From a virus: a stretch of 64,000 bases of DNA. The DNA is taken from positions 1 to 64,000 of the IMG/VR virus record IMGVR_UViG_3300025127_006147; one strand, written 5' to 3'. How positions within the stretch are numbered: position 1 is the stretch's first letter; each line of letters opens with the position of its first letter. This document shows positions 22,898-64,000 of this stretch, piece by piece. The translations under genes were made by a program, and so were the position numbers. The notes under the pieces were generated by a model. It ran no database searches. It worked only from the letters and a program-made list of their open reading frames with translations, and had not been told where the DNA came from.

Positions 22898-23068
22898 TTA
22901 TAGTTCAAAACCAAGATTTAATACCATAAATCTAAATTTAGAACATTTGTCAGTACTACACGGACAAATCTTAACTTCAAATACAGTTAATTTACCTAAT
23001 CTAAAAGTTAAACTATATTTTTCTTTTTTATTTCCACTTTTCCAGGAATTAATCCAATCTATTTTCAT
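22898..23068 (-). CDS. Small protein, 56 residues
   Basis: A short minus-strand gene filling the gap between two larger ones. It starts at ATG 23068-23066 and ends at TAA 22900-22898. The sequence begins MKIDWINSWKSGNKKEKYSL, then has LTVFEVKICPCSTDKCSKF and a hydrophobic end. The Cys-Pro-Cys and following Cys could bind a metal, although only three cysteines are present. The frame fits exactly (two bases after the stop of the upstream gene), which supports a real coupled gene. Function unknown. Confidence 0.6.
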   Translation of the reverse strand: MKIDWINSWKSGNKKEKYSLTFRLGKLTVFEVKICPCSTDKCSKFRFMVLNLGFEL

Positions 23069-23070
23069 AA

Positions 23071-23529: not shown

Positions 23530-24195
23530 TTAAAATTTATTTAATACTTCATTAGGGTCCACTCCTTGAGCTTCACACGCTTTTTTAAATCTAGAACCTA
23601 GTTTATCTAATATCGGATAATTCATTCTATCACGTAATTCCATTTCTACTCCTGGTTTAATGTCGTCTACTTCATCTTTTTTATTTAAGATTACTTCTAA
23701 CATATCTTTCATTTTTTTATTAGATAACTCTACCAGTCTTTTTCTTTCATCGTTTTCAGCTTTTTCTTGTGATACATCAGTTGCGTACCCATTTTCTTCA
23801 CATTTTTTAACCGCTTTTTCTCTAGTTAAACCATAATTACCCATAAAGTATTCCATACATTCATTAGTAGTTTCTACTTCACTATCTAATTCTTCGTTGT
23901 CACCAAGACCACCACCTAGATAAGCTTCTCCCCAGTATCTTTTATAATAATAACCAAAACCATTACCTTTTTGATGTGCGGTTTTTACCATATCATCACT
24001 AGTACTTCTACTAATTTTGTTACTTTTATTAATACCTAAAGGAATTTTTGAGTTCATCATTGAACCATCATAATCCACTAATTCTTCTAGTTCTTCTTCA
24101 TTTTTACCGTCTAAGAGTTCAGTTTCGGACATTTCCTCCTCTTTATCTAAGTAAGTTTTTTTAGAAGTTTTACCTTTATGTTTTAATCTATCCAT
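23530..24195 (-). CDS. Hypothetical charged helical protein, late block
   Basis: A 221-residue strongly charged protein. The acidic N-terminus is ELLDGKNEEELEELVDYD. A Gly/Tyr-rich stretch (KGNGFGYYYKRYWGEAYLGG) and a mostly helical C-terminal half follow. It is the first gene of the block. A TATTTATA motif lies 14 nt before its ATG, divergent from the large plus-strand gene. No family is recognised. The end resembles 'ACEAQGVDPNEVLN', a helical pattern common in phage structural or scaffold proteins, but this is not diagnostic. Confidence 0.58.
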   Translation of the reverse strand: MDRLKHKGKTSKKTYLDKEEEMSETELLDGKNEEELEELVDYDGSMMNSKIPLGINKSNKISRSTSDDMVKTAHQKGNGFGYYYKRYWGEAYLGGGLGDNEELDSEVETTNECMEYFMGNYGLTREKAVKKCEENGYATDVSQEKAENDERKRLVELSNKKMKDMLEVILNKKDEVDDIKPGVEMELRDRMNYPILDKLGSRFKKACEAQGVDPNEVLNKF

Positions 24196-24209
24196 AGTTT
24201 CTTTTTATC

Positions 24210-24217
24210 TATAAATA
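24210..24217 (-). promoter_or_regulatory. Candidate late promoter motif
   Basis: TATTTATA on the minus strand, 14 nt before the ATG at 24195, and it opens the minus-strand block. A plus-strand TATTTATT lies at 24235-24242, close to the alternative start of the divergent gene. Confidence 0.5.
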
Positions 24218-24220
24218 TTA

Positions 24221-27040: not shown

Positions 27041-27045
27041 AAAAC

Positions 27046-27053
27046 TATTTATA
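27046..27053 (+). promoter_or_regulatory. Candidate late promoter motif
   Basis: TATTTATA, 12 nt before the ATG of the fibre gene at 27066, in a 25-base intergenic gap. Confidence 0.5.
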
Positions 27054-27065
27054 AAATAAAAAAAT

Positions 27066-38102: not shown

Positions 38103-41100
38103 ATGGCAACAGACGGAAAAGTTTTTGTATCCCCAGGGGTATACACGTCAGAGAAAGATTTAAGTTTCGTAGCACAAAGTGTGGGAGTAACAACACTTGG
38201 TTTAGCTGGTGAAACTCTTCAGGGTCCTGCTTTTGAACCTATTTTCATAAGTTCATATGGAGAATTCCAAACCTATTTCGGTTCATTAAACCCAGAAAAG
38301 TTTACGGAAACACAAATCCCTAAATACGAATTATCATATATAGCAAAAGCATATTTACAACAATCTAATCAGTTATTTGTGACTAGAGTATTAGGTTATT
38401 CTGGATATGACGCTGGACCTTCTTGGTCAATAACAACAATAGGTAACCCTGATTGTGAAACTATTAGAACTCAGTGTGCTGACACTACAAGTACAGTATA
38501 TAGTGCTTCTACATGTAACACTGGAACGGCTTTTGAGTCAACTAGTGGTTCTACTGCTGTGGTAAATAGTGGTTCTGTTGGGTTATACTTTACTGGAGGG
38601 ACTGACGTTTGGACTGATTCATCCACAACTGTTAAACCTATTGATTCTTTACCTTGGCCTATTTCTGAAAAAATAAATGAAACTTTAACAAAAACAGATG
38701 GTAGTAGTACAACTATTTCTGCCGAGTTAGATAGTATGTTATCTACATATTACTCTAGTTTATCACACATAGCAGTATGTGCAACTGGAGGTACCCCATG
38801 TTTCTTACCTATGACAGGAGGAACTAGTGTAGAAAAAGCTTTTGGTTGTAACTATGATGGAGATACGGTTTCAGGAAATACATTATATGAAGGAACATAT
38901 TTAGAAAATGCAGGAACACCAGCATCTTCAGGATACACTTACCAGTCTAAATTTAGTGGTATAACAGAAACACAAGTTTTAGGTTCTTCTTGTAACCCTA
39001 AACCTTCAGTATTCTGTAATGACATTAACGACCCTTGGTTATACGGATTCTTTGACCTAGTTCCTGGAACAGACCAGTATACTGGTTTCTCAATGAGTAT
39101 CGGTATCAATACTAATGATGTTTTAGATATTAGTACATCCGCTCAAACAACATTATATTCTGGAGATTCTGCTTTAAGATTCTCTTACACATTATATACA
39201 GGAGAAACTTTCTGTAACTACAACGATTTAGTAGTCGCAACTTTCCGTTCAAGAGGTGTAAGTACACAAAATTCAGGTGGACCTGTTTATCAAGTAACTG
39301 GTGGAACAGATGTTACAATGGTTTGTACGGGAGACACTTTCTCCAAAGTAAATACTGACCCATTTGCCACTTTTGGTATGGATGTTACAGATAAAGACGG
39401 TGATTCATTTAGATTTGAAACTTCTATGTCTCCATCATCTAAAGACTTTGTTAAACGAGTATTTGGGGTGGCACCGTTTGATAAACAAATGGAACAAGTT
39501 CCAATCTTTGTAGAGGAAGCTTATCCTAACATGTTAACATACGCTTATAAGAAGGGTTACATTAAAGGATTAAACTGTAGTCTACTAGATTTACCTTCAT
39601 TTAGAGATTCTAATAATACTGGAACTATTGGTTTCTACCAAGAACAATGGCAAACCCCAGTAACACCTTATGTTGTTTCTGAACTAAGAGGTACCAAAGT
39701 ATATAAATTATTTAGATTTATATCTATATGTGATGGTAACGCAGCTAACACACAAGTTAAAATATCTATTGTTAACATTTCATTTGAAAGAAATGAATTC
39801 GATGTGTTAGTTAGAAGTTTCTATGACACAGACGCTTCACCAGTTGTATTGGAAAGATATACAAGATGTAGTATGAATCCTAATTTGAACTCTTTTGTTG
39901 GGGTTAAAATTGGTACCGCTAATGGTGAATATGAATTGAAGAGTAGATACATTATGGTAGACTTAGACCCAGAACAAGAGACTGACACTAACCGTCATGA
40001 TGCTGTTCCTTGTGGATTCGAAGGTTATGTGACTAGAAATTACTTAGGAGAACAAAGTCCTACATTATACTATAAAACAAAATATAATAAACCAGGTGAT
40101 ATAATCTGGAACCCACCTTTCGCTGTAAGTTCAACTGTGGATAACTCAGTGATAAGTGCGGGAGATAAAATTAGAAGAGTTTATTTAGGTATTTCTGATA
40201 CTGCAGCTTCAGCTTATGACGATGACTTCTTCCAATATAAAGGAAAACAAGCACCTACAGATAAATGTAATGATTTAGATGGTACAGACTGGAATTGTTT
40301 AACTCAAGGATTCCATATGGATAGTGGAGCGACTTGTGTAAATACTTTAGGTGAGTTATGTGTAACTACACTTTGTAAAAATTGTGGTACTGGAACAACA
40401 ACTGAAGACCAGTTCGCTGTTGGTGTAGCACCGTTTAGAAGTGAACCAACTAATTCACAGGACCCATACTACACATTACAGTCTAGAAAATTCACATTAG
40501 CACCGTATGGTGGTTTTGATGGATGGGACATTTATAGAAAATCAAGAAGTAACGGAGATAGTTATGTTAGAGGTAAATCAGGGTTCTTAAACGGAGCTTG
40601 TACTTCAACTACATTCCCTAACGCGTCTGGTGATGGTTCATTTAAACTATTATCAAGCACTCCTTGGGGTGAATCAGGATTCTTCGCAACAACTGACTAT
40701 TACGCTTATTTCTTCGGTATTAGAACATTTAGAAACCCAGAAGCGGTTAACATTAACGTATTAGCAACACCAGGTATTGACTATGTAAACAATAGTAACC
40801 TTGTAGAGGAAACAATTGACATGGTAGAAACTGAAAGAGCTGATTCACTGTATGTTACTACAACACCTGACTACAACTTGTTTGTACCAGGAGCTACGGT
40901 AGCGGCAAACATAATCCAACCTACTGAAGCGGTAGATAACTTAGATTTAACAGCAATCGATTCTAACTACACCGCTACTTACTACCCATGGGTACAGTAC
41001 AACGACCAAGAGAACAATACAAGAGTATGGTTACCACCTACTTATGATGTAATGAGAAACATTGCTTTAACAGATAATATCTCATTCCCTTGGTTCGCGT

Positions 41101-41582
41101 CCGCTGGTTACACTAGAGGTATTGTAAACGCGGTTAAAGCTAGAAAGAAACTTACTCTTGATGAAAGAGATACGTTATACGCTGGTAGAATTAACCCAAT
41201 CGCAACTTACTCAGATGTTGGTACTATTATCTGGGGTAACAAGACACTACAAAGTAGACAATCTGCATTAGACAGAATCAACGTTAGAAGATTGTTACTA
41301 CAGGCTAGAAAATTAATTTCGGCAGTAGCAGTTAAATTGTTATTCGAACAAAATGACGAACAAGTAAGAAACGAATTCTTAGACTTAGTTAACCCAATCT
41401 TAGACTCTATTAGAAGAGAGAGAGGTTTAACAGACTTTAGAGTTGTTCTTTCTGACGACCCACAATTGATTGACCAAAATACATTAGAAGGTAAGATTTA
41501 CATAAAACCAACTAGGTCTCTAGAATTTATCGATATCGAATTCTTAATTACACCTACTGGAGCATCATTTGAAAATGTATAA
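38103..41582 (+). CDS. Tail sheath protein (gp18-like) with large insertions
   Basis: Contractile sheath subunit of 1159 residues, far longer than T4 gp18 (659). The N-terminus is typical (FVSPGVYTSEKDLSFVAQS; SYIAKAYLQQSNQLFVTRVL). The C-terminal domain is classical (ATYSDVGTIIWGNKTLQ; 'IDIEFLITPTGASF'). Between them lies an insertion from about residue 110 to 430, rich in Thr, Gly, Ser and Cys, and a second Cys-bearing segment near 720-770 (SGATCVNTLGELC; TLCKNC). The insertions may decorate the outer tail surface. It is preceded by a TATTTATT motif and followed directly by the acidic protein. Confidence 0.93.
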   Translation: MATDGKVFVSPGVYTSEKDLSFVAQSVGVTTLGLAGETLQGPAFEPIFISSYGEFQTYFGSLNPEKFTETQIPKYELSYIAKAYLQQSNQLFVTRVLGYSGYDAGPSWSITTIGNPDCETIRTQCADTTSTVYSASTCNTGTAFESTSGSTAVVNSGSVGLYFTGGTDVWTDSSTTVKPIDSLPWPISEKINETLTKTDGSSTTISAELDSMLSTYYSSLSHIAVCATGGTPCFLPMTGGTSVEKAFGCNYDGDTVSGNTLYEGTYLENAGTPASSGYTYQSKFSGITETQVLGSSCNPKPSVFCNDINDPWLYGFFDLVPGTDQYTGFSMSIGINTNDVLDISTSAQTTLYSGDSALRFSYTLYTGETFCNYNDLVVATFRSRGVSTQNSGGPVYQVTGGTDVTMVCTGDTFSKVNTDPFATFGMDVTDKDGDSFRFETSMSPSSKDFVKRVFGVAPFDKQMEQVPIFVEEAYPNMLTYAYKKGYIKGLNCSLLDLPSFRDSNNTGTIGFYQEQWQTPVTPYVVSELRGTKVYKLFRFISICDGNAANTQVKISIVNISFERNEFDVLVRSFYDTDASPVVLERYTRCSMNPNLNSFVGVKIGTANGEYELKSRYIMVDLDPEQETDTNRHDAVPCGFEGYVTRNYLGEQSPTLYYKTKYNKPGDIIWNPPFAVSSTVDNSVISAGDKIRRVYLGISDTAASAYDDDFFQYKGKQAPTDKCNDLDGTDWNCLTQGFHMDSGATCVNTLGELCVTTLCKNCGTGTTTEDQFAVGVAPFRSEPTNSQDPYYTLQSRKFTLAPYGGFDGWDIYRKSRSNGDSYVRGKSGFLNGACTSTTFPNASGDGSFKLLSSTPWGESGFFATTDYYAYFFGIRTFRNPEAVNINVLATPGIDYVNNSNLVEETIDMVETERADSLYVTTTPDYNLFVPGATVAANIIQPTEAVDNLDLTAIDSNYTATYYPWVQYNDQENNTRVWLPPTYDVMRNIALTDNISFPWFASAGYTRGIVNAVKARKKLTLDERDTLYAGRINPIATYSDVGTIIWGNKTLQSRQSALDRINVRRLLLQARKLISAVAVKLLFEQNDEQVRNEFLDLVNPILDSIRRERGLTDFRVVLSDDPQLIDQNTLEGKIYIKPTRSLEFIDIEFLITPTGASFENV

Positions 41583-41608: not shown

Positions 41609-43558
41609 ATGAAACTTAATTATAAAAAACAAAAATTAGTAGAAAGTTTAGGTTTTAACGTAAATTTCAAAAACCATTATGGTAATAAACCACAAAACGT
41701 TAAAGTAACACCAGACCAGTTCAAAAGATTAATGGAGTCTTACTTAGTATATGAGGAAGAAATACACAAGGAAGAGGAGGATTTAGAGTTAGCAGAATTC
41801 TCTGATTCATTCCAAGACGAACTTGACCAAGACATATTAGATGAAATGGATATGGAAAAAGAAACCAAAGAAGGGTATGGTAAAAAACATATGGACGAAA
41901 TGAACTTTGGTGATGACGGTGGTTTGAATTTACCTTCAGATGTAGATATGGATACTGAAAACGACAATAACCCGATTGATTTAGATGAATATGGTTATCA
42001 GTCTATTGACCATTCTGATAGAGACGAGTTCGATGGTAGAAAATCTAGAGTTGTTGGGGTATATTCAGACATTAACAAACAACGTTATGGGATGAATGAA
42101 GATTCTGAAGGAGAGGAAACATATCACTACGATGAAGATTTACACCATGACAGAGATGAATTACATCATTTAGAACGTGAAAGAAGTCACGCTCATGGTG
42201 GACATAAGTCCGACCTAGACCAACATATCGCAGCTCTAATTGATTCAATGAAGTATGACGATAAAAGAGGTGTGGGTAAAGATGATATGTACAGAAGAGA
42301 ACCAGGAACACACTTTTACCATGAAGGAAACGGTTTAGCGGAATCTGTTGACAAAACTTTTAAAATGATTAGAGAATCTATTAGAAGAGAAAGACCAAAA
42401 GGTTTAAGAATGAGTAACTATAGTAGAAAAACTTTAAATGAACAATTTGTTGGTTATACTGAAATGGGTGAACAATTCTATGGTGGTAGAGGTAACTACA
42501 ATAATCCTGGAGTAAATGCCGCTAAGGGTATTGAAGAGTTAGTTAAGAACATTAAAAAAGCTTATAACTTTATTAAAGATTCAAGAACTAGAAAACAAAT
42601 TGAAAACACCTTAGTTAAGTTACAAAACTTTATGGCTATCACAGCTGACGCAGTTATGGCAGGTAAACAACAAAGAGCACCTAGAAGAAATGACCAATTA
42701 ACTAGACCATTACCTTATCCTGAATTAGACGAACCAGAAGATTTAGAGGATATTGATGATGAGTTAGATTTAGATTCACTTAATGAGTCCCAAAAACGTA
42801 GTTTGGTTAGAGAAGCTAAAAGAGAGTTGAGAAGAAGAGCTTTAGTTGAAGAATTTTATTTACTTAACGAACAGGACGGAAAAGATAAAATTAAACAGTT
42901 AAAAGACGCTTTAAAAAGAGAAAGACAAGCTAAAAGAGATTTAAACAAACTAGGAAGAAAAGAACAAAGAGAAGAAAGAAAAAAAGCTAGAGAACAAAGA
43001 AAAGAACTCAAAAAATTCGAACAACTATGTTCTAAATTTCCAGACGCTCCAGAATGTTCTGATAAAGATGAATTCGTAAAAGATGTTGAACAAGAAATTA
43101 CAAAGGTAGAAGTTGCAACAAAAGATGCGGAAAAAGATTTCCAAAAACCCCCATCTGGGATACCAGATAAAAAACCTGGTGATTCGGTTAGTGGAAAAGA
43201 AACATCAAAGTTATGTCAACTAAAAGGAGACAAAACCTATGAGTATAAAGTAGAAAATGATGAGTGGTACAGTAGAAAAAGAGGTACAACTAAATGGAAC
43301 TCATTAGCTGGAGATAAATTTACTTTAGCAAGAGCAAGGTTAGATAAAGGTTGCCCAACGTTTAGAAAAACTAAAGAAGAAATGCCAGATGACGCGGTTA
43401 GTTCACAGGAAGATAAAGTGAGTTCAGCTACACAAACAAATGACCCAGATTCTTGGAAATCAAATATTCCAGGAAATGACCCAAAAAAGGACGCTGAAGC
43501 AAGACAAAGAGCCAGAGAATTTGCAGCTATGGGGTACCAAGGTTATTCAGGTAATTAA
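41609..43558 (+). CDS. Acidic coiled-coil protein with (L/I)xE-type start, unknown function
   Basis: A 649-residue, highly charged protein. It begins MKLNYKKQKLVESLGF and has 'QFKRLMESYLVYEEE' near residue 38, both with (L/I)xE sequences. A long acidic region follows, then a His/Asp-rich stretch (residues 170-200) and a Lys/Arg/Glu coiled coil (430-480). The C-terminus holds 'TYEYKVENDEWYSRKRGTTK', a small SH3-like pattern. Size and position (after the sheath, before a terminator) suggest a virion, scaffold or packaged protein, but no family was identified. An AAAGG lies 6 nt before the ATG, one of the clearer Shine-Dalgarno-like sites. Confidence 0.6.
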   Translation: MKLNYKKQKLVESLGFNVNFKNHYGNKPQNVKVTPDQFKRLMESYLVYEEEIHKEEEDLELAEFSDSFQDELDQDILDEMDMEKETKEGYGKKHMDEMNFGDDGGLNLPSDVDMDTENDNNPIDLDEYGYQSIDHSDRDEFDGRKSRVVGVYSDINKQRYGMNEDSEGEETYHYDEDLHHDRDELHHLERERSHAHGGHKSDLDQHIAALIDSMKYDDKRGVGKDDMYRREPGTHFYHEGNGLAESVDKTFKMIRESIRRERPKGLRMSNYSRKTLNEQFVGYTEMGEQFYGGRGNYNNPGVNAAKGIEELVKNIKKAYNFIKDSRTRKQIENTLVKLQNFMAITADAVMAGKQQRAPRRNDQLTRPLPYPELDEPEDLEDIDDELDLDSLNESQKRSLVREAKRELRRRALVEEFYLLNEQDGKDKIKQLKDALKRERQAKRDLNKLGRKEQREERKKAREQRKELKKFEQLCSKFPDAPECSDKDEFVKDVEQEITKVEVATKDAEKDFQKPPSGIPDKKPGDSVSGKETSKLCQLKGDKTYEYKVENDEWYSRKRGTTKWNSLAGDKFTLARARLDKGCPTFRKTKEEMPDDAVSSQEDKVSSATQTNDPDSWKSNIPGNDPKKDAEARQRAREFAAMGYQGYSGN

Positions 43559-43582
43559 TAACTTATAACATTTTTATTATTT

Positions 43583-43610
43583 AAAAAGGGTCCTAATGGA
43601 CCCTTTTTTT
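43583..43610. terminator. Bidirectional rho-independent terminator
   Basis: AAAAAGGGTCC, TAAT loop, then GGACCCTTTTTTT. The stem has A and T flanks on both sides, and the element separates the plus-strand gene ending at 43558 from the minus-strand gene ending at 43609, so it can end transcription from either direction. Confidence 0.9.
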
Positions 43611-43842
43611 ATTCATCTATTTTTCCTCCGTTTCCAAGGATTAGTAAAAATATCATAGGAAACATTAATGGTGCTTTTAAGATGTGGGTAAATATATAGA
43701 AGTTGAACCATCCGTTTGAAGGTTCCCCTGAGTTTTCCTGTTCAAGTTCCAAATAATTTTTTTCAATCTGTTTTTTATTTATTTCGATAAAGAAAATCAT
43801 AGTAATGATTGAAATCGTAAGGTATGTGATAATGTATGTCAT
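43609..43842 (-). CDS. Small membrane protein with two transmembrane segments
   Basis: This 77-residue protein has a hydrophobic N-terminal segment (IITYLTISIITMIFFIEI, residues 3-20), a hydrophilic loop (NKKQIEKNYLELEQENSGE) and a second segment (THILKAPLMFPMIFLLIL, about 53-70). It has a host-type promoter 26 nt upstream and is the only membrane protein in the early-type group. Superinfection exclusion or membrane modification is conceivable, but no homologue is recognised. Confidence 0.7.
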   Translation of the reverse strand: MTYIITYLTISIITMIFFIEINKKQIEKNYLELEQENSGEPSNGWFNFYIFTHILKAPLMFPMIFLLILGNGGKIDE

Positions 43843-44842: not shown

Positions 44843-45283
44843 ATGAAATTAGCACTTTTTGACTTTGATAATACATTATTTAAAACCCCTTATGACGAAA
44901 GTCCAAGTTATATGGATAAACCAGAAAGTTTATCAATACGTAAATGGAAATTCGAACCAATACTTGAGACTATAAAAAAGTTTAAAGAATGTAAAAAAGA
45001 AAAAAATACGAAAGTTATTTTACTTACAAATAGAATTGACAATGTTTACTCAGAATTAAAGACTTTATTAGAGGAATACGGTTTGGTATTTGACGACTAC
45101 AAAATGATTATTGGTGTGGATGGTGATAGGTCTAAAGGTAAACGAGTAAAGGACTTGATATTAAATAATAACGTGGGTTCTGTTGAGTATTGGGAAGATA
45201 AAGATAAACATATAGAAGATGTCAAAAACACCATGGACTTTTTTCCAGAGATAGAATTAAAAATAAATAAAGTAGTTATTTAA
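44843..45283 (+). CDS. HAD-superfamily hydrolase, SAK-like
   Basis: This 146-residue protein carries HAD motif I as FDFDNTLFKTP, motif II as VILLTNR and a late acidic 'EYWEDKDKH' that can supply motif IV. The sequence 'LFDFDNTLFKTP ... W' resembles the HAD 'Swiss army knife' RNA-repair-like group (HAD_SAK_1), which is annotated as possible nucleic-acid end processing. The gene is driven by a strong host-type promoter, so it is probably early. It ends tail-to-tail (8-base overlap) with the kinase gene. Confidence 0.8.
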   Translation: MKLALFDFDNTLFKTPYDESPSYMDKPESLSIRKWKFEPILETIKKFKECKKEKNTKVILLTNRIDNVYSELKTLLEEYGLVFDDYKMIIGVDGDRSKGKRVKDLILNNNVGSVEYWEDKDKHIEDVKNTMDFFPEIELKINKVVI

Positions 45284-45929
45284 TTCTATTAATACTACCA
45301 GTAGCCCTTTCTCCTTTAGGTAAATCTCTAGTATTATCTACAATCCAATAATTATCTACCATAGGAATTAAATCTTTAACAACTCTTCTAACTTTATCGT
45401 GATAATCAATAACCATGTCTCTAGGTAAACTTCGGTCTCTTTCTTGATTTCTCTCCAAAGCTTTATCCAATTCTGTAACAACATGAACTATAGTTACAGC
45501 ATAACCATTGTCTTTAGCTAAATTAATTACATCATTCATAACTTGTCTTTGACCACCACCCGCATCATATACAATATTAGGTGTGTGATTTCTCTCCACC
45601 TCTAAAAAGTTCTTTAAAAATCTAATAGTTAAATTTCTAGGGTCTGATGTGGTATATGACATATCTAATATCTTTTTATAACCCTCGTCAGTAGAAATAT
45701 TTTCTTTCCAAGAATCACCCCAGATTTTTTTAGCTAACGCTACTCTATAGTTGTCTACATTAAATTGTTTGTAATCAGGTAAGTCTATAAAGTTTTGTGT
45801 AACGAAACTTTTTCCCGCACCTGGGCCACCAGCAATAATTACAAAATTACCCTGAGGTCTATCAAATCCAACTACCCTGGACTCAACAAACATTAATCTT
45901 TTGATTTTCTCAATTTCTTTTAGTAGCAT
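45276..45929 (-). CDS. P-loop kinase (zeta toxin/dNMP kinase-like) with (L/I)xE leader
   Basis: A 217-residue P-loop protein. It has Walker A GGPGAGKS near residue 34, a 'NVDNYRVALAKKIWG' loop with an acidic pair as in zeta-type kinases, and a lid-like 'ERNQERDRSLPRDMVID' near 165. Either a nucleotide kinase or a zeta toxin-like kinase is plausible, and the substrate is not evident. The N-terminal 17 residues (MLLKEIEKIKRLMFVES) are a separate basic helix containing LxE, as in DeoC across the shared promoter region. A late-type motif lies 7 nt upstream, so it is probably a late gene. Confidence 0.75.
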   Translation of the reverse strand: MLLKEIEKIKRLMFVESRVVGFDRPQGNFVIIAGGPGAGKSFVTQNFIDLPDYKQFNVDNYRVALAKKIWGDSWKENISTDEGYKKILDMSYTTSDPRNLTIRFLKNFLEVERNHTPNIVYDAGGGQRQVMNDVINLAKDNGYAVTIVHVVTELDKALERNQERDRSLPRDMVIDYHDKVRRVVKDLIPMVDNYWIVDNTRDLPKGERATGSINRIK

Positions 45930-45936
45930 ATCTTTA

Positions 45937-45952
45937 TATAAATATATTTATT
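45937..45952. promoter_or_regulatory. Back-to-back late promoter motifs
   Basis: TATAAATA at 45937-45944 (TATTTATA on the minus strand, 7 nt before the kinase ATG at 45929) runs directly into TATTTATT at 45945-45952 (21 nt before the DeoC ATG at 45974). The shared 44-base gap probably drives both genes. Confidence 0.45.
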
Positions 45953-45973
45953 AATGATAATAATACAATAATC

Positions 45974-46780
45974 ATGAACACAAAATTACTTATCGAAAGA
46001 ATGATGAGATTAATGGAAATAGAAGACATTAAGTCTGATATTTCAAATTATCTCGATTCAACGTATTTAAAAACATCAGAACAAGCTGGTATCTCAGACG
46101 AAGAAACTAAAAACAACGTTATGTCATTATTAGATGACGCTTTAAACCATAATATGAAATTAGTTATGGTAAGACCAGAACAGGTAGAATTAGCCAGAGA
46201 AGTAATAGACCAAAGAAACGGTAATACTTTAGTTGGTACAGTAATTGATTTCCCGTTTGGAAATGGTAGTACTTCAGATAAAGTTAATGAAGCTAAAAGA
46301 GCCATTAATATGGGTGTAGATGAAATTGATTATGTAACGGACTATAAATCTTTTAAGGCAGGAAATATAGAAAAATTTATTAGAGACATTGTAGATGGAA
46401 CCAGGGTTGGTATGGATGCTGGTAAAGTTGTTAAGTGGATTATAGAAAGTGAAGCTCTTACAAACCAAGAAATACAAGACATAACTCAGCTTATCAGAGA
46501 TGTGGTAGTTAATGAGTTTGGTGAGATACCAGCATCATCTGTTTTTGTTAAAACATCTACGGGATTTTTTAACGGTGAAAAACCAAATCCTGAAAAAACT
46601 AAAGAAGAAGACGTAATAATTATGTCTCAAAATGCTGGACCACTGAGGGTTAAAGCTTCTGGTGGTATTTATACTATAGACGATTTAAATAAAATGGTTA
46701 AAGCTGGAGCTAGTAGAATCGGAACTTCAGCTGCCAAAGAAATAATACGTGGTGATAAAGACGTTATAAAAGATTATTAA
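45974..46780 (+). CDS. deoC: Deoxyribose-phosphate aldolase (DeoC)
   Basis: DeoC cleaves 2-deoxyribose-5-phosphate to glyceraldehyde-3-phosphate and acetaldehyde. This 268-residue sequence has the DeoC motifs: YLDSTYLK, TVIDFPFGNG, MGVDEIDYV, 'FVKTSTGFF' (Schiff-base Lys near residue 192), 'VKASGGIYT' (second Lys near 227) and GASRIGTSA. The first 18 residues (MNTKLLIERMMRLMEIED) form an additional helix with LIE and LME. These are candidate cleavage sites of a T4-like prohead protease and are not part of typical DeoC. A late-type promoter motif precedes it. Phage DeoC is otherwise known in nucleotide catabolism, and the leader suggests possible packaging. Confidence 0.9.
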   Translation: MNTKLLIERMMRLMEIEDIKSDISNYLDSTYLKTSEQAGISDEETKNNVMSLLDDALNHNMKLVMVRPEQVELAREVIDQRNGNTLVGTVIDFPFGNGSTSDKVNEAKRAINMGVDEIDYVTDYKSFKAGNIEKFIRDIVDGTRVGMDAGKVVKWIIESEALTNQEIQDITQLIRDVVVNEFGEIPASSVFVKTSTGFFNGEKPNPEKTKEEDVIIMSQNAGPLRVKASGGIYTIDDLNKMVKAGASRIGTSAAKEIIRGDKDVIKDY

Positions 46781-46781
46781 A

Positions 46782-47663
46782 ATGAGTAAACGAATTAGAC
46801 AAATAATTAGAGAACAAGCTGGATTAAATTTATCCGTACAGGATGAAATCGGTAATTTGAACCCTAATGAAAGACAACAAATTAAGGGAGCGTTAATAGA
46901 TTTATTAAATAATAATCCAGAACAGGAAATGTCAGAAATAGAGTATGGTGGTATTCCTGAGTTAAAAGCTACTGGTTTAGTAGGTAAAATAGGTAAGTGG
47001 TTTAAAAGATTCTTAACAGATAAAGCTTCAGACTATTTAATCGACGCTAGTGCACAAGAAATGGAGGACACCATAAAATTAATTGACGCGTTAGACCCTA
47101 ATGACTTGACTGGTATATTCACTCCTAGAGCAATGTATTTAGGTGGTGGTATAGATTTTGCTGATGACGCGTTGTCATGGAGAACTCAGGTTGAGAACTT
47201 TTTTGGTCCTGGTCACGTAGTTAAAGGAGATAAATTATTTGAGTTAATTACCACGGGTAACATGAGTTTTAAAGGTCTTGATACTCCAGCAATACTTAAT
47301 CCATTAAGAGCAGAAACAGTAAGAGATGAAGACGATGAATTTCAACAAATGTTTAAACAGTGGAAAGCTGGTGAACTAGACGGACAGACATTCCAAAAAT
47401 TTAGAGAAAAGATTAGAGAACAAATAGTTGTACAAGATTTATATATGTTAAAAGTGTGTGACACTAACCTAATTAATTTTGATGGTACTGCTGGAGCTGG
47501 AACATTCGGAGAAGCTCAGTTTAGTGCTTTGAAAAACTCACAAATCTTTGTTTGGTTAACTAACGGAATGAAAATATCTAACATCTCTCCATGGATGATG
47601 CCCTCAATAACCAAAATTCTTCAAGAAGACGAACTTTGGCCTTTCTTGTCTAACTTCAAATAA
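46782..47663 (+). CDS. Nucleoside 2-deoxyribosyltransferase-like protein
   Basis: This 293-residue protein begins MSKRIRQIIREQAG, a basic helix with an IRE sequence like the neighbours. From about residue 115, 'AMYLGGGIDFADDALSWRTQ' resembles the donor-binding start (GGxD/xxxWR) of deoxyribosyltransferase-like proteins. 'LYMLKVCDTNLINFDGTAGA' with 'GTFGEAQFSALKN' matches the D...GT..E region. These enzymes exchange bases on 2-deoxyribosides or cleave them. Beside DeoC and two phosphatase/kinase genes, a nucleoside-salvage role is plausible. It follows DeoC by one base, so they are coupled. Confidence 0.65.
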   Translation: MSKRIRQIIREQAGLNLSVQDEIGNLNPNERQQIKGALIDLLNNNPEQEMSEIEYGGIPELKATGLVGKIGKWFKRFLTDKASDYLIDASAQEMEDTIKLIDALDPNDLTGIFTPRAMYLGGGIDFADDALSWRTQVENFFGPGHVVKGDKLFELITTGNMSFKGLDTPAILNPLRAETVRDEDDEFQQMFKQWKAGELDGQTFQKFREKIREQIVVQDLYMLKVCDTNLINFDGTAGAGTFGEAQFSALKNSQIFVWLTNGMKISNISPWMMPSITKILQEDELWPFLSNFK

Positions 47664-48332
47664 ATGAATCTTGTCAGAAGAATATTAAGAGAATACACTG
47701 AACAACCATTAAATGAACTAGCTAGAACTAATCGTTTAATAGTTCTTGACGTTGACGATACATTACTTAAACCTTCTGGTGTATACATCTATAGAAATTT
47801 ACCTTCAGACCCCCAAGAAATTGCATTAACACCTTACGAATACGGTTTAGAAAACGTAACCCCAGAAACGAAACAATATTACGACTATAGGGACTTTTTA
47901 GACCCAGTAAAAACACAACAATCAATAGAACAAGCTGAACCAATAGTTACTAACTTATCAGTAATGGACGATTATTTAAAATTAGGTCATCAGATAGCTA
48001 TATTAACAGCAAGGTCTAATGAACAGGTTGTTTTTGACGGATTAAAACAATGGTTAATGTATAAAGACAGAAAAGGTAACCTAATACCAATAGGGGACCG
48101 TCTAAATAGAGAAAACGTATTTGCGGTAAACGACACCAACAGAATGAGTACACTAGAGTCGGAGACTGATTATGAAAAAAAGGCGGAGATAATGGAAAAA
48201 TTAGTTAAAGTTTATGACGAAATAGTTTTCATAGATGATGATATGAAAAATATTAAACAAATGAAGATGTTAAAAAGAGATTTACCGGAAGAGCTTGCTA
48301 AGAAATTATTTGTAATGCATGCTAAAGAATAA
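47664..48332 (+). CDS. HAD-family phosphatase with (L/I)xE leader
   Basis: This 222-residue protein follows the deoxyribosyltransferase-like gene without a gap. The N-terminus MNLVRRILREYTEQPLNE is a basic helix with LRE. The HAD core then has LIVLDVDDTLLKPSG (motif I), IAILTARSNE (motif II), and VFIDDDMKNIKQMK (motif IV), resembling phage polynucleotide 3'-phosphatase or nucleotidase domains. The substrate may be a nucleotide or nucleic-acid end. The shared leader and late-type promoter upstream of DeoC argue that this cluster is expressed late. Confidence 0.8.
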   Translation: MNLVRRILREYTEQPLNELARTNRLIVLDVDDTLLKPSGVYIYRNLPSDPQEIALTPYEYGLENVTPETKQYYDYRDFLDPVKTQQSIEQAEPIVTNLSVMDDYLKLGHQIAILTARSNEQVVFDGLKQWLMYKDRKGNLIPIGDRLNRENVFAVNDTNRMSTLESETDYEKKAEIMEKLVKVYDEIVFIDDDMKNIKQMKMLKRDLPEELAKKLFVMHAKE

Positions 48333-48478: not shown

Positions 48479-48967
48479 ATGGCTGACTTATTAATGAAAA
48501 TGCCCATACCGTATGAACCTAAAAAGAAAAATAGGTTTATCTTAAGATTCCCTTCGTCGTTGGGTATTAATGAGTGGTATGTGGAAAGTACTTCTAGACC
48601 TGCTGTTAATATTAACCCAGTAGAAATCCCTTTCTTAAACACATCTACTTATGTAGCTGGTAGATTTACATGGAACACAATCAGTGTGACATTTAGAGAC
48701 CCTATAGGACCATCAGCGTCACAAGCACTTATGGAGTGGGTAAGATTACACGCAGAATCTGTAACAGGTAGAATGGGTTACGCTGCAGGATATAAAAAGG
48801 ACATCGATTTAGAGATGTTAGACCCTACAGGTGTTGTAGTTGAAAAGTGGATAATGCAAGGAACATTCTTAACAGACGTTAACTTCGATAGTTTAGGATA
48901 TAGTGATGATGCAATTGCAACTATTTCAGCAACCTTGAGACCAGATAGATGTATATTAGTATACTAA
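48479..48967 (+). CDS. Tail tube protein (gp19-like)
   Basis: This 162-residue protein is a canonical T4-like tail tube subunit: 'KKNRFILRFPSSLGINEW', 'GRFTWNTISVTFRDPIGPSA' and 'SDDAIATISATLRPDRCIL'. Its length matches T4 gp19 (163). Tube subunits form the inner hexameric channel inside the sheath. The gene ends at a strong terminator at 48988-49016. It is separated from the sheath gene by about 7 kb holding an acidic protein, the early genes and the nucleoside-enzyme cluster. Confidence 0.95.
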   Translation: MADLLMKMPIPYEPKKKNRFILRFPSSLGINEWYVESTSRPAVNINPVEIPFLNTSTYVAGRFTWNTISVTFRDPIGPSASQALMEWVRLHAESVTGRMGYAAGYKKDIDLEMLDPTGVVVEKWIMQGTFLTDVNFDSLGYSDDAIATISATLRPDRCILVY

Positions 48968-58340: not shown

Positions 58341-61300
58341 ATGGCAAATGAAATTTCTAATGGTGATAATGTCTTAGTAGAGTTTTCCGAAAACAATATA
58401 TTACTAGTAGACCCTAATAGAGTATTTGAGGGTGGAAGAGTAAAAGACCGTTTAGTTGACTCTGAAAATTTGGTTATATACGCTAGTTTAAAAGCTAGGG
58501 TAGTACCTCGTAGTAAATTAATTAGTGGTGCGGGAGTTGACAACCAGACACCAGAAGCGTTCGTAGATGTTTTTGAAGGAGAAATAAATTTTCTAAAACC
58601 CCAAGGAAAAGACTATTATACAAGTGATTGGACTGACACACAAACAGGCAAAGGATTTGGAAGTGAAGCAGGTTCTTTTAATCAAAGGGTACAAACTAGT
58701 ACTATTGGAGCTAACGGACAATTACTATTCAAAGAACAAATTAGAAATAAAATAGATTCCGAAGGTTTTGGTATTAATAACATTTCAGTAACACTTAACA
58801 GAGCGTTTACACCAATAGTTAATATTACTTTTACTGACGTTAGGGGTCAAACATTATTTGAACAAGGCCCTAATTCACCATATGCTGCTTTTTTCCAATT
58901 ACCATATCCTTTATTTAAATTAAAATTAAAAGGTTATTATGGTAAAGCGGTGGAGTATCAGTTAATGTTGGAAAAATTTAACGCGTCTTTTGATTCTAGT
59001 ACTGGAAATTATAATGTAACTTGTAATTTTAAAGGTAGGGTTACCGCTTTATTAGCTGATATTACCTTACAAGAAATGCGTATAGCACCTTATATGTTTG
59101 CTAGGTCATATGAGATAGAAACTGGAGAAGATGAAAAATCTTCTTTTATAAGTAGCAGAGGTAGACAAACCTTAAGTCAAGTTTATGCAGCTTATAAATC
59201 AAAAGGTCTAATTGGAGAAAGTTTACCTGATTTAACTATAGATGACTTAATTGAAAGAATAAAACAATTAGAAACTGATATAGAAAAAAAATTAAAAAGT
59301 TATAATTTAGACGCTTTAGATGACATTGAGACTTATGACAAGTATTCTACTTCCTATAGAAATAAAATACTTGCTTCTGGAGGTTGGAGAGCAACCTATA
59401 TAGATAATGATATAAATTCTGTAAGTGGCCCACAAGTAGATATATCTACAGATGTGGTTTATTATCAGTTTAAAAAAACATATAGAGATAATCCCGTAAA
59501 ACAAAAAGACGCTTTTGAAAATTTAAAGAAAAGGATAAAAGAAGGTAATGAAGCTTTACTTAGAAATAAAACATTTGGTAAAGGGGGAAAACAGGCGATT
59601 CCTGTAGATATAAAATTAGAAGATTTTGAAAGTTCACCCCCTACAGGGTTTGAAGACAGTACTAGTAATTGGTTTAGGTTTGATGTTTTTGAAGAAAAAA
59701 TTGGTAAAATAATTACAGTATTTAACACAAAAAGAACTGAGATTGAAACCACACTAACATCTGCTGTTAATGAAGTTGTGATAGAATCGTTAGGGTTTAA
59801 CCCAACAGTTAGAAATATATTTGCGATTATGATAGCTCATGCAGATACATTCTTAAGATTGATGGACGAAACCCACACCCAAGCTTTCGAAGTTAGAGAT
59901 GAACTAGATAGATTGAATGCGGTTAAAGGACCAGGAAATCCTAGTAGTGCTGATGAAGATGTTATAGTTTATCCTTGGCCACATTATTATATTGAAGAAA
60001 CAACAGAAAACGGACCACAATATGTAAGTACTTATCCTGGTTCACCCAAAGTTTTAGGACAAACCAAAGCTTATAACGCCACACTATGGCCTGAAGTTAA
60101 CTTTGTCGAAGAATTTTTTAAAGCACAAGTAATTAGTAATTCGGACACTAAACCCGAATTTTCTGTAAATACTGTGGGTGGTAATTGGGTACCCATATCT
60201 TCTTTTGAGTTGGGAGAAGAACAAGTTTATATAAACAAAGCTACAGTCCCATTCAACTACGAAATCTGGGACCGTTCAGTAGCTTTTTCATGTTTTTATG
60301 GTTTAGCTACTAGATTAAAAGATAATGTTGCTAAAAATACCTATTATGAATTATCTAAAATAGAAGCAGCAAATATAAAAGAATATCTTACAGGCCTGTT
60401 GGACCTTAACGAATTATTAAAAAATCAAAATTTTGATTATAATACTTACATAGATTACTTACAACAAATTTCACCACTAAATAACTACCAACTCTTATTA
60501 AGAGACCAGTTTAGTACACCCTACATTAGAGAAAAAGTTAATAACTCCACTTTTACTATTAGACCATTTAATTCTTTTAAAAGTTTAACATATCAACTAA
60601 ATGATGGTGAAATAGAAAGTTCATTAGAGTCTTTAAATACTGTATTAGCTTCTGGAAACATAAGAGAAAATAATATTTTAGAAACTTTTCCTTTTTCTCA
60701 TTTTGTTTCTAATGCACCAAACACTTCCTGGACAGTAAATAATTTAGCTGGTGGAGTACAAATATCTAGTTATGAAAATTTAAACAGTATATCACAGAGT
60801 ATAAGTTATCAATCAGACCAAAAAGTTTTTGCATCAATTATACCTAATAACACTACCTCATCTGTTATAGAAAATATTCAATTTTATACTGATGGGGATT
60901 GGGCAGCAAAAACAGCTATAACAGATTTAGCCACAAAAATAGATACAAGATTTATAAACAATCAAAATACTAAAAATTCTTGGCAAGTATTTTTCGATAA
61001 TGTACAATTCCAAGAAAACTCATCTTATGTTTCTAACCAAAATTTGGTAACTACAGAAGGTAGTTTGAATTATGGGGATGATTATGGTGGAGATATATCC
61101 TCTAAACAAATAACTTCATTATTAAATACACCATACTTTATTAATAGTTTAGTGGAAGGTGTAAATAATGAAATTAATAATACTAGTAATCCCTATAAAT
61201 CAGCAGCCTACTTATTTTTAAATTCATTACCTTTACCCACACTAAGAGAAAAAACATTATTATCTAATCAGTCTACATATAACTTATATGGTGATTATAT

Positions 61301-64000
61301 CGGTAAAACTCTGAACCAAGTTTCAGCAGTGCATCCTTTACCCAGTGCGTGGATTTTAAAGTATGGTGCTATTTGGCATAGATATAAAGAATTTACAAAT
61401 AACGGTTCTGACTTTCTTTCCTCTATTTGGGACAATTTTGATGCCAACACTTATTTTAATAATAGTAATGGTTTGGGTTATACCTATGATTTAAATGTCG
61501 GGCCCAATAATACATTAACAAGTTTTGGAGGACAATGGTCCCCCACCCCAACATCCGACCAGTTAAATCTTGGATTTTATCCTGAGTTAAACAACTATAT
61601 TTATTATTTTGTAACTGGTGAACTTTTATATGATGGGTTAAATATAAGTGGTTTCCCAATAACGGACAATCAAGTTAATCAGTTAATTTTACAGGAAGCG
61701 TTATTTCTTAAAAACGCGGAAGAATTAACAATAACTTCTATACCTACTGACCCAGTACAAACCAAAGCTAGTTTGTGGTTCAATTATTATGATTTAACCA
61801 GAGAGGGTTATCTTAGTGGATATACTACTGCACAGTACTTACTTTTCCCATGTGAAGGGGGTATGAAAAAATCACAACTAGAATTTGAAGTTAATACACC
61901 ATATAATTTAATTAATAATAGTAATGTAACTAATGGTGCCGCAAGACTAGTTTGGTCTTTATCGAATTACGGTTATTTTGAACACAATCAAAATACTTTC
62001 CCACAACCAGACCAATACCTTAAAGTGATTGATAGTACACAAGAAGAACAACTGTCTTTTAATATTAGTAATAATGAAAACTATTCTTCCATTGAAGAAT
62101 TATTTGATATTTTTACACCCCAGATACTCGATACATTTGAGGAGTATTTTCTAAATTTTACAGAAGCTTTTAATCCAGACCCACCAGTATATTACGATAG
62201 TGAAGACATTAGAAGTTTGAATTTCCAAAAAACCATTAGAGAATTTTTGAAAATAGACCAAGACAAAGTTAACGATTCTCAAAGTAATACACAACTAAGT
62301 TATAATTTAGGTCAAACACAGTTAAATAAAATTAACTCTACTTTAAGAGAATTTTTGTCACACCAAACAGCTTTTAATTTCTACAACCCAAAAGATATAG
62401 ATATCTTAGTATTTAAAAGTATGGCTCCCCAATCAGGAGCTACACCTTACATAACTTTTGGTCAATATAAAGGTAATTTACCCCCAGACATTTCTTTAAA
62501 TGATTCCACAACCCTATATGTAAACGAGTGGAAAGAATTAAGACAACAAGTAGGTTTTTATAGTGACTCTTTATCTTCCGCTTATACATTAAATTTAATT
62601 TATAACGATAGTGGAAACTATGTAACAGAATTTTTCCGTGAGTTTAATATCGACTTTAATGTCCCCAACATTAAAAACCTGAGAAAAATTATTAGAATGT
62701 ATGTAACTGCTAGAATTGAAGCGGGAGCGACACAAAATATAGACAATATAGAATTTTTACAAAGAATTAAAACGGAATCTATTGAAGCGTGGGAATTTGC
62801 ACAATTTGATTTTATAAATCAATTGTTTATACAACTAAAAAAAGTGTTACCACAAACAGCGGAAACAGAAATCGAAGAATTTACAAACAATTCTACTTTT
62901 GAAACTGATGAAGCTAAATTAGAACAATATCAGGTATTTAAGACTCTAAACGATAAGTGGGTAAGTGGGGAAGAATTCAGTAATAAGTATTTGTTTGAGG
63001 ATTTCTTATTTTATGATGTAGCTAACAGAGATGTGGGTGATAAAGCTATAATTACTACTGATGCTATTGCCAATTTTGATAGTATTAATAACGCTAATAA
63101 AAGTTTATTAACCATTATAGGAGCTATTTTACAAGGTAACTTCTTTAACTTTATGGGTATGCCTAGTTATATTAATTTTTACGGTATGACATCACAAGGT
63201 AACACACCCATCCCTAAATTAAGTACTCAAGAAGAAGCAGACGCTATTTTTGGTACACATTTAGAGGTAGATACTCTAGACTCAGGACCTAAATTTTTAT
63301 GTCAATACGTAGGACCACCGTCAACACAATTGGGTGGTGAATTAGCTAAACAAAGTAAATATGAAAATGATTCCTTCCTTTTAGGTAGGACAGCTCAAAA
63401 TCCATTACTTTCAACCGACTATGACCCACAAAAAAATAATAAGGTAGTTGCTTTTGCGGTAGATTTTGGAATACAGAGTCAAGGGGTATTTAAAGGAATT
63501 AGTTTAGACCAGAGTGAATTTAAAAACACTTCTGAATCTTTTGCTGTTACAGAATCCATGGCACAATCAGCGAATGATAAAAGTATTTTAACACAAGGAT
63601 TAAGTTTATTTAATATCTATAAAACTAGGTCGTATACATGTAAAATAGAAGCTATGGGTAATGTGTGTATACAACCAACAATGTACTTTTCACTCAGACA
63701 CATTCCAATGTTTAGTGGACCTTACTTAATATTAGACGTTGAACATACAATACAACCTAATACTATGACTACTAGTTTTACTGGAGTTAGAGTACCATTC
63801 CATAAAATGCCTGAAATAAGTCAACTAGTAGCTAAAGTTAATCAAACGTTTTTAAACAAACTAAGAAAAAAAGTAAAAGAAGAAAAAGCAATTCAAAGAC
63901 AAGGAGGATTTGAACCAGAGAGCACTACAGAAAGTAATTCAGTTAGAGAAGGTAATTATAATTTTAGGGGTAGAGATGATGGTAAGTTAGATTATATAAT
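58341..64000 (+). CDS. Large baseplate/hub protein, 3' part cut by window edge
   Basis: An uninterrupted frame of at least 1886 codons starts at ATG 58341 and stays open to 64000. The N-terminal 250 residues are beta-rich ('NISVTLNRAFTPIVNITFTD'; 'FQLPYPLFKLKLKGYYGKAV'). The far part ends with 'YTCKIEAMGNVCIQPTMYFS' and 'SGPYLILDVEHTIQPNTMTT', a baseplate hub or late-control-protein (gpD/gp44-like) pattern seen in large myophages. The C-terminal region (KKVKEEKAIQRQGGF) then begins a linker that may lead to a further domain beyond the edge. It is a giant component of the tail tip, co-transcribed with the wedge gene. Confidence 0.7.
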   Translation, partial: MANEISNGDNVLVEFSENNILLVDPNRVFEGGRVKDRLVDSENLVIYASLKARVVPRSKLISGAGVDNQTPEAFVDVFEGEINFLKPQGKDYYTSDWTDTQTGKGFGSEAGSFNQRVQTSTIGANGQLLFKEQIRNKIDSEGFGINNISVTLNRAFTPIVNITFTDVRGQTLFEQGPNSPYAAFFQLPYPLFKLKLKGYYGKAVEYQLMLEKFNASFDSSTGNYNVTCNFKGRVTALLADITLQEMRIAPYMFARSYEIETGEDEKSSFISSRGRQTLSQVYAAYKSKGLIGESLPDLTIDDLIERIKQLETDIEKKLKSYNLDALDDIETYDKYSTSYRNKILASGGWRATYIDNDINSVSGPQVDISTDVVYYQFKKTYRDNPVKQKDAFENLKKRIKEGNEALLRNKTFGKGGKQAIPVDIKLEDFESSPPTGFEDSTSNWFRFDVFEEKIGKIITVFNTKRTEIETTLTSAVNEVVIESLGFNPTVRNIFAIMIAHADTFLRLMDETHTQAFEVRDELDRLNAVKGPGNPSSADEDVIVYPWPHYYIEETTENGPQYVSTYPGSPKVLGQTKAYNATLWPEVNFVEEFFKAQVISNSDTKPEFSVNTVGGNWVPISSFELGEEQVYINKATVPFNYEIWDRSVAFSCFYGLATRLKDNVAKNTYYELSKIEAANIKEYLTGLLDLNELLKNQNFDYNTYIDYLQQISPLNNYQLLLRDQFSTPYIREKVNNSTFTIRPFNSFKSLTYQLNDGEIESSLESLNTVLASGNIRENNILETFPFSHFVSNAPNTSWTVNNLAGGVQISSYENLNSISQSISYQSDQKVFASIIPNNTTSSVIENIQFYTDGDWAAKTAITDLATKIDTRFINNQNTKNSWQVFFDNVQFQENSSYVSNQNLVTTEGSLNYGDDYGGDISSKQITSLLNTPYFINSLVEGVNNEINNTSNPYKSAAYLFLNSLPLPTLREKTLLSNQSTYNLYGDYIGKTLNQVSAVHPLPSAWILKYGAIWHRYKEFTNNGSDFLSSIWDNFDANTYFNNSNGLGYTYDLNVGPNNTLTSFGGQWSPTPTSDQLNLGFYPELNNYIYYFVTGELLYDGLNISGFPITDNQVNQLILQEALFLKNAEELTITSIPTDPVQTKASLWFNYYDLTREGYLSGYTTAQYLLFPCEGGMKKSQLEFEVNTPYNLINNSNVTNGAARLVWSLSNYGYFEHNQNTFPQPDQYLKVIDSTQEEQLSFNISNNENYSSIEELFDIFTPQILDTFEEYFLNFTEAFNPDPPVYYDSEDIRSLNFQKTIREFLKIDQDKVNDSQSNTQLSYNLGQTQLNKINSTLREFLSHQTAFNFYNPKDIDILVFKSMAPQSGATPYITFGQYKGNLPPDISLNDSTTLYVNEWKELRQQVGFYSDSLSSAYTLNLIYNDSGNYVTEFFREFNIDFNVPNIKNLRKIIRMYVTARIEAGATQNIDNIEFLQRIKTESIEAWEFAQFDFINQLFIQLKKVLPQTAETEIEEFTNNSTFETDEAKLEQYQVFKTLNDKWVSGEEFSNKYLFEDFLFYDVANRDVGDKAIITTDAIANFDSINNANKSLLTIIGAILQGNFFNFMGMPSYINFYGMTSQGNTPIPKLSTQEEADAIFGTHLEVDTLDSGPKFLCQYVGPPSTQLGGELAKQSKYENDSFLLGRTAQNPLLSTDYDPQKNNKVVAFAVDFGIQSQGVFKGISLDQSEFKNTSESFAVTESMAQSANDKSILTQGLSLFNIYKTRSYTCKIEAMGNVCIQPTMYFSLRHIPMFSGPYLILDVEHTIQPNTMTTSFTGVRVPFHKMPEISQLVAKVNQTFLNKLRKKVKEEKAIQRQGGFEPESTTESNSVREGNYNFRGRDDGKLDYI

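Follow-up and report, generated by a model that had tools for sequence, protein, structure and literature searches.

The N-terminal leaders of four enzymes encoded by a marine T4-like phage are very probably capsid-targeting propeptides of the T4 kind, placed on variable enzyme cargo. Taken together, our results suggest that this phage and its relatives load the enzymes into the head and inject them with the DNA; docking, cleavage, packaging, injection and benefit are steps that we infer. In the analyzed window (the whole stretch of 64,000 nucleotides), the four genes lie in the gap between the tail-sheath and tail-tube genes, which is best read as a variable cargo locus holding kinase, DeoC, a 293-residue protein and a HAD phosphatase. 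Relatives add a superoxide dismutase (SOD) with a leader at this locus, and others. The features are as follows, a slash marking the predicted junction between leader and mature protein.

22488-22526, minus strand: putative leader of a WYL-like protein, MKLYNTLSSIILE/V
41609-43558, plus strand: 649-residue acidic protein with many protease-type sites, bordering the cargo locus on its left
44843-45283, plus strand: small HAD protein without leader, adjoining the kinase, used as internal control
45276-45929, minus strand: P-loop kinase, polynucleotide-kinase-like (Pfam AAA_33 and model fold), with N-terminal leader
45882-45929, minus strand: kinase leader, type A, MLLKEIEKIKRLMFVE/S, predicted cleavage after E16
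45937-45952, divergent: late-promoter-like core of T4 type, TATAAATATATTTATT, between kinase and DeoC
45974-46780, plus strand: DeoC, deoxyribose-phosphate aldolase (TIGR00126), with leader
45974-46018, plus strand: DeoC leader, MNTKLLIERMMRLME/IE, the phage extension reaching to about residue 22-25
46782-47663, plus strand: conserved 293-residue protein with leader, deoxyribosyltransferase-like by motif only
46782-46814, plus strand: its leader, type B, MSKRIRQIIRE/Q
47664-48332, plus strand: HAD phosphatase with leader
47664-47693, plus strand: its leader, type B, MNLVRRILRE/Y, with a second site PLNE/L ending at 47717

All four open reading frames were found where an earlier, sequence-only reading of this DNA had placed them, with the N-termini that it had given. 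Judged by its sequence, DeoC is certainly genuine: it scored 138.4 bits against the TIGR00126 equivalog (cut-off 117.3), and its catalytic lysines K154 and K193 are invariant. The kinase matched Pfam AAA_33 from residue 30 onwards (E 1.9e-10), and the closest PDB folds to its AlphaFold2 model (pLDDT 80) were polynucleotide kinases (4gp7, E 6e-8; T4 Pnk 1ly1, E 1e-5). According to this model, it has a P-loop kinase fold and is predicted to be polynucleotide-kinase-like. The HAD phosphatase has an invariant DxDDT motif and weak HAD-family profile matches. For the 293-residue protein, the proposed deoxyribosyltransferase label retains the motif likeness, but Pfam and PDB searches gave no match, and the AlphaFold model (pLDDT 45) was too low in confidence for use in fold comparison. 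The wider idea of a nucleoside-catabolising set holds in part: it suits DeoC, but the kinase is polynucleotide-kinase-like, no substrate could be assigned to the HAD phosphatase, and the SOD of relatives lies outside nucleoside metabolism.

Each enzyme is preceded by an amphipathic helix of 10-17 residues. Ranked by hydrophobic moment (maximum over 11 residues within the first 16) among the phage's own N-termini, kinase, DeoC, 293-residue protein and HAD phosphatase reached percentiles 96, 88, 99 and 99, with leader net charges of +1, 0, +3 and +2; the leaders had been described as basic and amphipathic, and amphipathicity holds for all four, whereas the DeoC leader is not basic. The kinase model has a separate helix at residues 2-13, with low confidence at residues 10-14. 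The statement that every leader contains (L/I)xE has to be loosened for the kinase, whose junction is FVE/S and becomes LVE or LIE in relatives; E11 of the 293-residue protein is invariant across 7 orthologues. The small HAD protein opens directly with MKLALFDFDNT, and its orthologues likewise have no leader.

A leader criterion (moment of at least 0.6 plus [LIVMF]xE) was passed by 12/157 N-termini, including those of all four enzymes (hypergeometric 2e-5, for a set picked post hoc), compared to 36/1119 interior segments (p = 0.01). The bare (L/I)xE motif, of which the earlier reading had itself warned that it is common, was found within the first 25 residues of 31% of proteins versus 25% expected (p = 0.07) and is thus at chance level genome-wide. 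Genome-wide leader enrichment was modest in this record (G000) and in the relative G001 (p about 0.01-0.03) and absent in G003, and ungapped pairwise scores among unrelated N-termini were only ~1.35 times those of interior windows. Because whole-proteome (L/I)xE counts and regex scans give little or no enrichment, genome-wide frequency is a poor test. The window leaders do not fit the consensus of the T4 capsid-targeting sequence (CTS), MK(T/S)(F/Y)xxF(I/T)xE.

Comparing the N-termini of relatives showed that the leader and its site are kept despite swapped sequence. Across five enzyme families, [LIVMF]xE was present in 39/39 non-redundant leaders compared to 28% of body windows, and strict [LI]xE in 36/39 compared to 11% of enzyme-body windows, orthologous leaders in this count not being independent samples. 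Orthologous enzymes bear unrelated leader types and retain the xE junction: kinase leaders are of types A, B and C, orthologues carrying B or C instead of A, and SOD leaders are of types B, C and D, ending in LSE/A, LTE/A, IAE/A, LVE/A, ILE/S or ILE/G. Within one genome, the leader DNA of neighbouring SOD and kinase genes is identical at 39/48 nucleotides, while the gene bodies match at no more than 27/48.

The same extension is missing from cellular homologues. Cellular DeoC proteins (n = 75) start at a median of 5 residues ahead of the fold and have the site in 1/75 cases, whereas all 16 phage DeoC proteins begin 25-27 residues ahead of it and all have the site, which makes the phage N-terminus ~20 residues longer. 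Similarly, residue 3-5 of cellular SOD aligns with residue 20-22 of the phage protein, corresponding to an extension of 17-19 residues, and the metal ligands are retained in the phage enzyme. Matches of DeoC and SOD obtained by tblastn in "phage" records of Listeria, Staphylococcus and Salmonella resemble host DNA and were excluded.

The earlier reading had noted the lack of a prohead protease in the window; because the record is incomplete and does not include the head block, the phage's own protease and capsid gene remain unseen. The relatives G001 and G003 encode a gp21-type S77 prohead protease with T4-type catalytic motifs, its NHP and SSRG motifs aligning with T4 gp21. The protease was also present in 6/10 further records with leadered enzymes, the remaining four being fragments. 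All checked isolates with a leadered homologue have an S77 match above the cut-off; in LR756503, S77 matches were sub-cutoff only. Capsid and scaffold proteins of relatives carry matching sites: the major capsid protein gp23 has LINE/A close to the T4 cleavage position, and the gp22 scaffold contains 8 [LI]NE motifs versus 0.5 expected.

Three of the enzyme families carry a T4-type CTS in distant phages. This applies to kinase homologues in Klebsiella KP15 (MKSFKQFTESTLTE/A) and Aeromonas phage 65 (MKKFSEFIKLEE), and to DeoC (MVKNFDKFVRE/A) and the 293-residue protein (MKNFTRFINE/N) in LR756503, where 6/102 genes compared to 2/417 interior methionines have such a start. The SOD homologue of Pseudomonas phage PA5oct, with the leader MNDSIKKYISIAE/A, has an ESI-MS/MS flag in its record, a flag that extends to non-virion proteins such as ribonucleotide reductase; leader enrichment among the flagged proteins was weak (p = 0.03). 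A literature search found no virion proteomics for this clade or close isolates; those nearest to it, Microcystis phage Mel-JY01, Rhodothermus RM378 and Flavobacterium immuto, are distant. A virion mass spectrometry paper on a Klebsiella T4-like phage concerns a different genus.

According to the mechanism we propose, the enzymes would be synthesised late in infection with an amphipathic helix of 10-20 residues, which would dock them onto a gp22-type prohead scaffold core. A gp21-type (S77) protease would then cleave after (L/I/V)xE at the junction of leader and enzyme, leaving free enzyme inside the head to be ejected along with the DNA at the following infection, and the leaders would act as modules swapped among cargo genes. 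The comparative tests support the propeptide part of the original proposal, while virion presence and injection are deduced. We lean towards the broader view that marine T4-like phages, probably with flavobacterial hosts, possess a general enzyme-delivery system in which swappable leaders of multiple types load varying combinations of host-derived enzymes into the head, namely SOD, DeoC, end-healing kinase and phosphatase, possibly also polyphosphate kinase and peptidoglycan hydrolases, so that infection begins with a metabolic and antioxidant kit.

It is highly improbable that the leaders are plain N-terminal helices bearing chance xE motifs. Neither bare (L/I)xE genome-wide nor TATAAATA in the window is enriched, as such an explanation would have it, but the site is found in 36-39 of 39 leaders versus 11-28% of bodies, it persists when unrelated leader types are swapped, and cellular DeoC has no extension. 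The leaders could instead dock onto another phage structure (tail, membrane or replication compartment), with xE as a mere helix cap and neither proteolysis nor packaging. Amphipathic helices often act as docking peptides, and the sheath and tube genes flank the locus; we nevertheless regard this as unlikely, since the junction residues equal the protease site of the relatives' gp22 and gp23, the T4-type CTS on homologues of three families is known for head targeting (PMC9026906), and an S77 match accompanies leadered homologues in every checked isolate.

If the leaders are capsid-targeting propeptides, the enzymes could still enter the prohead and work or stay there rather than being injected into a new cell, just as T4 IPIII itself influences head assembly (PMC9026906). 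We give this only a small chance, since the catalytic residues are retained (DeoC K154 and K193, SOD metal ligands) and, in T4, Alt and the internal proteins leave the head by ejection (PMC9026906).

In T4, CTS propeptides comprise 10-19 residues and are cleaved by gp21 after L/I-X-E (PMC9026906); the leaders of its internal proteins were taken directly from the T4 record. The window leaders resemble those of IPI-III and Alt (PMC9026906) in being short, putative N-terminal propeptides that terminate in (L/I)xE, frequently with A as the next residue, in the gp21-type protease, and in the unrelated mature proteins behind the tag. Unlike in T4, the leader types are IxxIKxLMxxE, LIKxILRE and ITESQxxxIL, swapped between cargo genes, and they precede conserved metabolic enzymes, whereas T4 tags small inhibitors or ADP-ribosyltransferases. 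The ejection proteins of phiKZ-like phages such as SPN3US offer a further parallel: many of their head proteins bear propeptides, which a prohead protease removes by cleaving behind Glu, and are then ejected; however, the protease lineage and cleavage motif differ, and the consulted parts of these reports do not describe the ejected bolus as host-type metabolic enzymes (PMC5694885, PMC10052503). As with auxiliary metabolic genes of marine phages, host-type enzymes are encoded within the phage genome; ordinary enzymes of this sort are taken to work only once expressed, but one that carries a head-targeting tag would arrive at time zero.

Metabolic genes of phages are usually assumed to act only once expressed in the infected cell. 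Enzymes riding in the head would be active ahead of any phage gene expression. If this is true, capsid targeting would represent an exchangeable address tag across T4-like phages, the internal cargo of uncultured phages would become predictable from sequence, and the leaders would widen the choice of tags by which proteins can be loaded into phage heads.

Two further proteins had been credited with the same leader type. The case is weak for the 649-residue protein, which has no amphipathic start (moment at the 29th percentile); its [LI]xE[AQSG] count of 7 versus 1.5 expected throughout is exceeded only by a relative's gp22, and on these sites it is a possible prohead-core substrate. For the WYL-like protein (22161), a similar start in G001 and G003 is consistent with a leader, but the moment is weak (69th percentile).

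Late-type motifs had also been proposed between kinase and DeoC. Counts of TATAAATA, one copy of which lies at 45937-45944, show no enrichment (18 in the window versus 17.96 expected); we retained the core as a feature despite this chance-level count because it is conserved in the divergent spacer. There, a core of the TATAAATA/TATTTATA type is kept in nearly all of 11 relatives while the flanks have diverged, and several relatives have an exact TATAAATATATTTATA.

The window spans bases 1-64000 of a virus record of 194,481 bp, and its cargo interval lies between two tail genes. Four of the proteins encoded there carry a leader, a short amphipathic N-terminal helix ahead of the enzyme:

38103-41582, tail sheath, left flank of the interval
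Between tail sheath and gp19, 649-aa acidic protein
44843 (between tail sheath and gp19), 146-aa HAD protein, leaderless
45276-45929, minus strand, kinase with leader
45974-46780, plus strand, DeoC with leader
46782-47663, plus strand, 293-aa protein with leader
47664-48332, plus strand, HAD phosphatase with leader
48479-48967, tail tube gp19, right flank

DeoC scored above the cut-off of a curated NCBIfam model, and the kinase is a P-loop protein whose AlphaFold model (pLDDT 80) places polynucleotide kinases as the nearest structures. Family and structure searches returned no match for the 293-aa protein, whose AlphaFold model is of low confidence (pLDDT 45) and whose designation as a deoxyribosyltransferase in the sequence-only reading remains a motif-level guess. 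The label "nucleoside catabolism" is firm for DeoC alone. In relatives, the same interval harbors a superoxide dismutase (SOD; Pfam Sod_Fe_C, E 9e-41). A neighbouring YDVWPSAYASG-domain family bears leaders of type B or C (types being unrelated sequence classes on orthologous enzymes). In the cargo locus, a conserved cysteine-containing domain (motif YDVWPSAYASGA; relative G003, 43036-43737, plus strand; records L064, 2339-3001, and L065, 2294-3001) follows type B or C leaders and has no Pfam match above cut-off. Since the closest cellular relatives of the window DeoC all belong to Flavobacteriia/Bacteroidetes, they hint at this group as the phage host.

Orthologues of the four enzymes and SOD were taken from IMG/VR, yielding 55 distinct leaders in five enzyme families, or 39 once those more than 75% alike were dropped. 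All 39 showed [LIVMF]xE ahead of the enzyme start and 36/39 showed [LI]xE, compared to 28% and 11% of equally long enzyme-body windows, although p-values are only nominal as the leaders are orthologues. The xE junction is kept whichever leader type is present (a slash marks the predicted cut): SOD carries MRELIKKILKEGFLSE/AKK or MRNLIKKILNENIIAE/AKK (type B), MKIRITESQYNLILE/GKE (type C) or MQNKFLNQVEAILDNTVVLE/AKK (type D), and the kinase MLLKEIEKIKRLMFVE/S (type A), MRNLIKKILREEFLKE/E (type B) or IMVTESQIEKILMTE/A (type C). Within one genome, SOD and kinase leaders are identical at 39/48 nucleotides, whereas the gene bodies reach at most 27/48, which argues that leader DNA was transplanted between unrelated neighbouring genes. 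The L064 kinase (3638-4327) has a broken type B start followed in tandem by a complete type C leader, as if replacement had been caught in the act.

The extension proved to be phage-specific rather than shared with cellular homologues: the closest cellular DeoCs have a median of 5 residues ahead of the fold, with the site in 1/75, whereas phage DeoCs have 25-27, with the site in 16/16. Cellular SODs start at phage residue 17-19, and the small HAD adjoining the kinase is leaderless in every relative seen.

Homologues elsewhere carry T4-type targeting sequences. T4 internal proteins start with MKTYQEFIAE/A and MKTFKEFTSTTTPVSTITE/A (T4 record); the ten N-terminal residues of IPIII are enough for entry into the head, and the cut by gp21 falls after L/I-X-E (PMC9026906). 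In Klebsiella KP15 the homologue of the window kinase starts with MKSFKQFTESTLTE/A, and in Aeromonas 65 with MKKFSEFIKLEE. In a 735-kb phage (LR756503), DeoC starts with MVKNFDKFVRE/A and the 293-aa protein homologue with MKNFTRFINE/N; T4-type starts occur there in 6/102 genes vs 2/417 interior Met positions. The SOD homologue of Pseudomonas phage PA5oct (MNDSIKKYISIAE/A) has an ESI-MS/MS flag in its record, a permissive flag since ribonucleotide reductase is also flagged; the flagged proteins are weakly enriched in leaders (p 0.03). In KP15 (L217), of a T4-like Klebsiella phage lineage, the kinase with an IPI-like capsid-targeting sequence (CTS) lies in a hypothetical protein, KP15_200; the gene adjoining it bears the annotation deoxyribonucleotidase in a relative (L222).

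The head block is absent from the window's record. However, the prohead protease, which the sequence-only reading noted as absent from the window, was located in close relatives (gp19 identity 90-94%), which encode a T4-type S77 protease with NHP and SSRG motifs aligning with T4 gp21, and in 6/10 further leadered records, the remaining four being fragments. Isolates with the leadered homologues also encode S77 above cut-off, the 735-kb phage showing sub-cutoff matches only. The major capsid protein gp23 of relatives contains THLINE/AT close to the T4 maturation position. The gp22 scaffold of these relatives has the top LNE enrichment among the proteins of three genomes (8 vs 0.5 expected). For [LI]xE[AQSG], second place goes to the 649-aa window protein (7 vs 1.5 expected), which may be a core substrate.

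Within the genome, bare (L/I)xE near the N-terminus showed no genome-wide enrichment (31% vs 25%, p=0.07). Combining hydrophobic moment and site selected 12/157 proteins vs 3.2% of interior segments (p=0.01), including all four enzymes. Such whole-proteome tests are weak, and the informative ones are comparative. A sugar-nucleotide enzyme and glycosyltransferase block (window 1628-21413), in which 1/24 called genes passes, represents a useful negative set.

Late-type motifs had also been proposed in the spacer between the divergent kinase and DeoC genes. TATAAATA is found there (45937-45944), but its count in the window is at chance level (18 vs 17.96 expected). Nevertheless, the core TATAAATATATTTATA or a 1-2-base variant is kept across 11 relatives amid differing flanks, and the spacer therefore fits putative back-to-back T4-type late promoters.

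With leader, junction site, phage origin, leader exchange and T4-type tags on homologues in hand, and protease and matching head-protein sites present in relatives, the leader would dock the enzyme onto the prohead core, the protease would cleave at the junction, and the enzyme would be packaged and then ejected. SOD cargo would blunt superoxide, DeoC would convert deoxyribose-5-phosphate to central metabolites, and the kinase and phosphatase pair could repair nucleic-acid ends. T4 capsid targeting itself is already known, and the CTS has been proposed to let related phages take in various proteins (PMC9026906); in the open-access literature searched, we found no report of head-targeted SOD or DeoC.

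Further leadered candidates occur elsewhere in the virus record:

146363-148276, minus strand, DHH-family-like phosphoesterase (relative G001: 58555-61452, plus strand)
148293-148910, minus strand, lysozyme (peptidoglycan enzyme), leader MKLINQLTLLIE/Q
167832-172838 (L006: 9833-14839), plus strand, 1668-aa protein, polyphosphate kinase 2 domain (E 3e-71); 2457-aa counterpart in G001, 19995-27368, minus strand
175759-177123, plus strand, M23 and SLT peptidoglycan enzyme, leader ITEEQLQKILKIKSTLNE/A
177123-183146 (L007: 124-6147), plus strand, 2007-aa protein, leader MYTLKEIRKILNIQE/Q, PAP2 phosphatase domain

The PAP2 protein contains 14 [LI]xE[AQSG] sites vs 5.3 expected. The polyphosphate kinase 2 proteins, with leader-like starts (MRQNSPHIKE and MRQSPNILQE) and many xE sites, are possibly packaged giant enzymes. 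The DHH-family-like phosphoesterases likewise show leader-like starts, MKKIIKE/SG and MEKILIE/SG.
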